Below, one piece after another: positions 50,737-50,889 of a stretch of DNA of 64,000 bases. The first letter of the stretch is position 1. Every line of letters starts with the position of its first letter. Below the pieces are notes generated by a model. The model made no database searches and was not told the DNA's origin. It worked only from the letters and a program-made list of their open reading frames with translations. This stretch comes from Acidimicrobiaceae bacterium (GTDB taxonomy: Bacteria; Actinomycetota; Acidimicrobiia; Acidimicrobiales; RAAP-2): positions 70,194-134,193 of the forward strand of contig PMFA01000024.1 in NCBI GenBank assembly GCA_003155915.1, in the 5' to 3' direction. A program made the translations under genes and the position numbers.

Positions 50737-50772
50737 CTGGTTAATCCTCTCCGTCGCGGTCGAACGAGAAAC

Positions 50773-50796
50773 AAAAAACCCCCGCCAAAGCGGGGG
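50773..50796 (-). terminator. Rho-independent terminator (attenuator) upstream of leuA
   Basis: Minus strand CCCCCGC-tttg-GCGGGGG followed by TTTTTT. Confidence 0.85.
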
Positions 50797-50819
50797 TCGG
50801 GGCGAGCGAGTGCCCACCC

Positions 50820-50855
50820 CTATCGAAGCAGCAGGTCGTTCTGGCCGGTTCTCAC
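50820..50855 (-). CDS. leucine leader peptide [11 protein letters not shown]
   Basis: gtg aga acc ggc cag aac gac ctg ctg ctt cga tag: three consecutive Leu codons immediately upstream of the terminator and leuA. Confidence 0.85.
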
Positions 50856-50861
50856 GTCAAC

Positions 50862-50889
50862 ATTCTATCCCCATCGGCGCAAATGTCCA
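50862..50889 (-). promoter_or_regulatory. candidate leuA promoter: TGGACA - 16 bp - TAGAAT
   Basis: Minus strand tggaca-tttgcgccgatgggga-tagaat; the -10 ends 6 nt before the leader GTG. Confidence 0.65.

Follow-up and report, generated by a model that had tools for sequence, protein, structure and literature searches.

The leuA gene lies on the minus strand of the window (here, the whole stretch of 64,000 nucleotides that was analysed), and the bases in front of it hold a very short reading frame with a run of leucine codons. This locus raises the question whether leuA is controlled by a leader peptide and a transcription attenuator, as an earlier note proposed, and if so, which RNA structure would keep the terminator from acting when a ribosome stalls on the leucine codons.

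Layout of the leuA leader

The leader is preceded by a promoter (50862..50889, minus strand) with a -35 element TGGACA at 50889-50884, a spacer of 16 nt and a -10 element TAGAAT at 50867-50862. It matches the consensus at 10 of 12 positions, and the scan of 700 bases found no second promoter-like site (0.2 sites expected). The minus strand holds every element that the earlier note listed, and 6 nt past the -10 element a leader reading frame of 11 codons begins with GTG at 50855 (50820..50855, minus). Judging from this layout, transcription is expected to start at or adjacent to the GTG. The three consecutive Leu codons of the earlier note, CTG CTG CTT, are confirmed in frame at 50834-50826, and the leader ends with a TAG stop at 50822-50820.

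Two hairpins come next. Hairpin 1 (50799..50820, minus), delimited by minimum-energy folding and covariation, has GGGGTGGGC as its 5' arm (50820-50812), the loop ACTC and GCTCGCCCC as its 3' arm (50807-50799). It begins with the final G of the TAG stop; the earlier note had all of GGGGTGGGC following the stop, and although that sequence is present, it is GGGTGGGC that comes after the codon. The hairpin adjoins an intrinsic terminator, here as well as in relatives and before other gene families. This terminator (50777..50798, minus), recognized by its fold and both conserved and covarying, reads GACCCCCGC-TTTG-GCGGGGGTT and carries the U-tract TTTTTT in its sequence at 50773..50778 (minus). The GTG start of leuA at 50736 lies 36 nt past the U-tract and is preceded by a Shine-Dalgarno motif GGAGAGG (50746..50752, minus; by inspection). 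The earlier note had read the terminator, the start codon and this motif correctly. The gene itself (49063..50736, minus; 557 aa) encodes a 2-isopropylmalate synthase of the yeast/actinobacterial type (TIGR00970 leuA_yeast, 782.7 bits against a cut-off of 697.4).

The two genes that immediately follow leuA (47054-49040) share its strand and might be transcribed together with it. One encodes a protein of 209 aa that matches no Pfam family, the other a DUF4147/MOFRL protein of the glycerate kinase type. On the other side the minus strand encodes a KdpD-type sensor kinase (54566-57124).

The minimum-energy fold places hairpin 1 and the terminator side by side, with no shared bases. Hairpin 1 has a free energy of -18.4 kcal/mol and both together reach -37.3 kcal/mol; the folding z score from leader to terminator is -4.2. 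Several lines of comparative evidence point to the same two stems. They stand out in the column-pair statistics of a structure-anchored alignment, and little else does, though for these two helices such an alignment is partly circular and it served mainly for the negative result elsewhere. In a plain MAFFT alignment, the double changes in both hairpins exceed nearly all shuffles; these statistics were limited to near relatives because MAFFT misplaced relatives with long loops. RNAalifold predicted both stems unaided from 47 sequences. At gathering score no Rfam family, T-box or other cis-regulatory RNA, is found, and the weak local matches fall far below the gathering scores.

Conservation of the leader and exchange of its codons

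Environmental Acidimicrobiaceae MAGs are the closest relatives in public data, and several of them come from palsa and bog samples. Regions upstream of leuA were gathered from the family, class and phylum, and 128 distinct leaders from Acidimicrobiia could be parsed. A run of at least three Leu codons occurs in 123 of the 128. CTG, CTT, CTC, CTA and TTG interchange within the run, a synonymous variation. The codon CTT makes up 6% of the Leu codons in nine genes of the window, yet it is the commonest third codon of the run (69/123).

The spacing in front of the leader start is conserved as well. A TANNNT motif is found 6, 7 or 8 nt ahead of a start codon in frame in 83 of the 128 leaders and never at 4 or 5 nt (shuffled background 6%), and just 6 of those 83 bear a motif resembling a Shine-Dalgarno sequence. 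This conserved spacing, together with the scarcity of such motifs, supports leaderless initiation of the leader frame. Distances further downstream vary little: the first Leu base lies 13-17 nt from the start of hairpin 1 in 117/128, approximately the length of one ribosome entry channel, and 0-4 nt separate hairpin 1 from the terminator in 112/128 of these yeast-type leuA leaders. Two leuA leaders (L016 and L025) keep the hairpin and the terminator with a single Leu codon in the leader, and are possibly decayed attenuators. In the leuA loci sampled from the phylum's other classes, a scan found no terminator after the Leu run. A loose pattern for further leaderless leaders lacked specificity: it matched the genome 11 times and the reversed control 9 times.

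A covariance model built from yeast-type leuA leaders only finds one significant site in the source genome, which is the one at leuA (E 1.2e-11; the next has 0.32). Sites occur in 83 of 148 genomes of the class and in 28 of 247 genomes of the phylum sample, 10 of these outside the class. Given the z score of -4.2, this single genome site and the class-wide conservation, the arrangement goes beyond chance.

The model also reaches other genes of branched-chain amino acid metabolism. Downstream genes were assigned for all 53 fetched class sites that do not precede a yeast-type leuA, with family models run for representatives: 42 are leuA of the bacterial type, 5 ilvB, 3 cimA, 2 leuB and 1 leuS. 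Eleven phylum sites lie before ilvB (4), leuS (3) and leuA (2), and two have no gene identity. The leader codons change with the gene. Leaders of leuA carry LLL and those of leuS likewise, some with interruptions, whereas ilvB leaders have mixtures of V, L and I codons, citramalate synthase (cimA) leaders IIII or III, and leuB leaders VIVI or IVVI. Fisher's test of Leu against Ile/Val codons by gene gives p ~5e-23, a rough guide, as related sequences are counted as independent. Hairpin 1 and the terminator are again 0-4 nt apart in 60 of the 61 loci folded from the other searches.

The two leuB-type genes (PRK03437 family; L245 and L249) have the leaders VIVIP and IVVIP without Leu; perhaps they serve the citramalate pathway to isoleucine. 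The scaffold at about 60-225 of the reversed locus L296, from another family of the phylum, has a leader ending in VLLIT and stop, and its downstream gene matches no branched-chain amino acid reference. The source genome itself carries, outside the window, an ilvB gene (L288, G000:C22, 150610-152286, minus) with a Val leader ILVVVV (MTTRNDILVVVVGARRR and stop) and a terminator upstream.

Taken across gene families, the identity of the codons thus tracks the pathway downstream, and ribosome-mediated attenuation of leuA, the central claim of the earlier note, is well supported. We adopt it as the working model because codons that follow the pathway on a constant scaffold are hard to explain otherwise than by ribosomes stalling where the matching charged tRNA runs short. 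The element has an upstream reading frame rich in codons for the amino acid of the pathway and an intrinsic terminator before the structural gene, and it is probably a transcription attenuator through which leuA expression would respond to charged tRNA-Leu. A wider reading is that Acidimicrobiia and some related actinobacteria share one modular attenuator scaffold for branched-chain amino acid genes, made up of the regulatory codons, a stop codon at the base of a hairpin and a terminator 0-4 nt beyond it, in which three to four codons would set the amino acid sensed and a neighbouring helix would antiterminate without sharing bases; it is a tentative one, and we regard it as rather doubtful.

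Ribosome position, folding and rival explanations

How would a stalled ribosome prevent termination? According to the earlier note, stalling frees GGGGU+GGG to pair with CCC(G)ACCCC, so that the 5' arm of the terminator is sequestered. The complementarity exists here, and a 4-bp core GGGY:RCCC could form in about 32 of 51 near relatives. Nonetheless, the pairing reaches only -11.9 kcal/mol, 6.5 kcal/mol short of hairpin 1, and hairpin 1 is the first to form. In most relatives it is disrupted: pair 7-21 is A-C in 39 of the 51 near relatives and pair 5-24 is C-A in 16, and the terminator arm of distant relatives, ACCUCCUG, is unable to pair in this way. On both the pair-count and the type-count measure, covariation of the proposed antiterminator among the 51 is no better than in shuffled columns. 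It is also absent from the predictions for transcripts that lack the 3' arm of the terminator. The two exclusive structures expected by the earlier note did not appear on folding either, as the terminator has a probability of ~0.98 with the ribosome at any codon and its 5' arm is free. Across leaders, constrained folding gives a median terminator probability of 0.97-0.98 with the ribosome at none of the positions, at Leu1, at Leu2 or at the stop, and according to the fold model the 5' arm stays largely unpaired until its partner has been transcribed. Thermodynamic folding thus shows no base-paired switch across the ribosome states, and we consider the classical mechanism quite unlikely. Since no antiterminator paired to the terminator arm is found, the element is classed as a variant rather than a textbook attenuator.

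Two further pairings were considered and rejected. One, between CACA in the loop of hairpin 1 and a UGUG of the terminator, was ruled out by inspection, as the UGUG bases vary freely. Pairing of the Leu codons with the 3' arm of the terminator, similar to that of the LEU element, is possible only in relatives with CTCCTCCTT/AGGAGG, and covariation is absent.

Hairpin 1 is the part that depends on ribosome position, as judged by constrained folding only: when the ribosome sits at Leu1 or Leu2 all of it is paired, and when the ribosome sits at the stop it is unpaired. Ribosome geometry and folding together suggest the following course. If leucine is plentiful, the ribosome would reach the stop codon and melt hairpin 1, so that the terminator could form unhindered and transcription would end early. 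If leucine is scarce, the ribosome would stall on the Leu codons and hairpin 1 would stay folded against the terminator. The folded hairpin would in this way fill the place of an antiterminator, present on stalling and gone at the stop, without sharing any bases with the terminator. That it represents the antitermination state is speculative, and we give it somewhat less than an even chance. Our best guess, drawn from general knowledge of intrinsic termination, is a steric block, in which a rigid helix 0-4 nt away would hinder the lower terminator stem from entering the polymerase's RNA exit channel. One study reports that neighbouring hairpins in clusters can promote termination (PMC8355165), and in that case the steric logic would be reversed.

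Other explanations of hairpin 1 have to be weighed against this course. Pause hairpins are known in classical attenuators, and a serious alternative is that hairpin 1 mainly acts as such, pausing RNA polymerase while a ribosome loads on the leaderless message, with antitermination brought about by an unseen protein or by the coupled ribosome. The dependence of hairpin 1 formation on ribosome position fits this account, which leaves the fixed gap of 0-4 nt and the readthrough unexplained; we hold it to be rather unlikely on balance. The element might also be the actinobacterial LEU element, acting by a pseudoknot or a binding protein and by pairing of Leu codons with the leuA Shine-Dalgarno sequence instead of by terminator control. 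Both precede the same gene and have a Leu leader with a hairpin right after the Leu codons. The present locus, however, has a conserved terminator with a U-tract, its leuA Shine-Dalgarno sequence lies beyond that terminator, and the Leu codons do not covary with the terminator 3' arm, whereas the LEU element was described without an obvious terminator; this identity appears very unlikely. Finally, a plain double-hairpin terminator without regulation, or a hairpin 1 that strengthens termination, would agree with the ability of adjacent hairpins to terminate (PMC8355165) and with a terminator predicted to be strong in all states. It leaves both the conserved, probably leaderless reading frame and the codons that track the pathway unexplained, and is in our opinion highly improbable.

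Comparison with known leaders

The Leu leaders known before actinobacterial leuA genes have no typical terminator and their mechanism is disputed. New here is a Leu leader joined by a hairpin in a strictly kept position and by a clear terminator, an arrangement found throughout a class and with codons that swap according to the pathway. Such a scaffold offers natural matched constructs for asking if an adjacent, non-overlapping helix blocks termination. For many uncultured genomes it also points to genes that are probably under amino-acid control. A literature search without most subscription journals found no paper on attenuation in Acidimicrobiia.

The closest counterpart is leuL1 of Streptomyces lividans, a leaderless Leu leader before leuA that was reported without a typical Rho-independent terminator (PMC8079986). 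In both, a short reading frame with a Leu run lies immediately before leuA, and here too it is predicted to be leaderless, but the present locus has a strong terminator with a U-tract, and its stop codon forms the base of hairpin 1. The LEU element occurs in many actinobacteria and involves a pseudoknot with a base stem between the Leu codons and the leuA Shine-Dalgarno sequence (PMC1262725); it likewise has a Leu leader and then a hairpin upstream of leuA, whereas two tandem hairpins including a terminator are present here. Leaders of leuA are also known in Corynebacterium.

Further likeness is seen with LeuL2 before leuS in Streptomyces, which combines a leaderless Leu leader, a hairpin and a U-stretch (PMC8079986, PMC1262725). 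These features are shared, the leaderless start being predicted here, and the present scaffold is also found before leuS in relatives. The difference is that a separate antiterminator was predicted for LeuL2 in 2005 (PMC1262725), whereas none is found in the leuA element. The ilvBNC leader of Corynebacterium glutamicum (PMC11857589) and the ilvB1 leader of M. tuberculosis (PMC13236596) resemble it in having a leader peptide, a hairpin of the stalled state and an adjoining terminator. In C. glutamicum, however, the antiterminator and the terminator share a GCC trinucleotide (PMC11857589), whereas hairpin 1 abuts the terminator here without shared bases. The same distinction is seen within the source genome: the stalled-ribosome fold of its ilvB leader reaches into the 5' arm of the terminator, as in classical attenuators, whereas hairpin 1 of leuA leaves that arm free.
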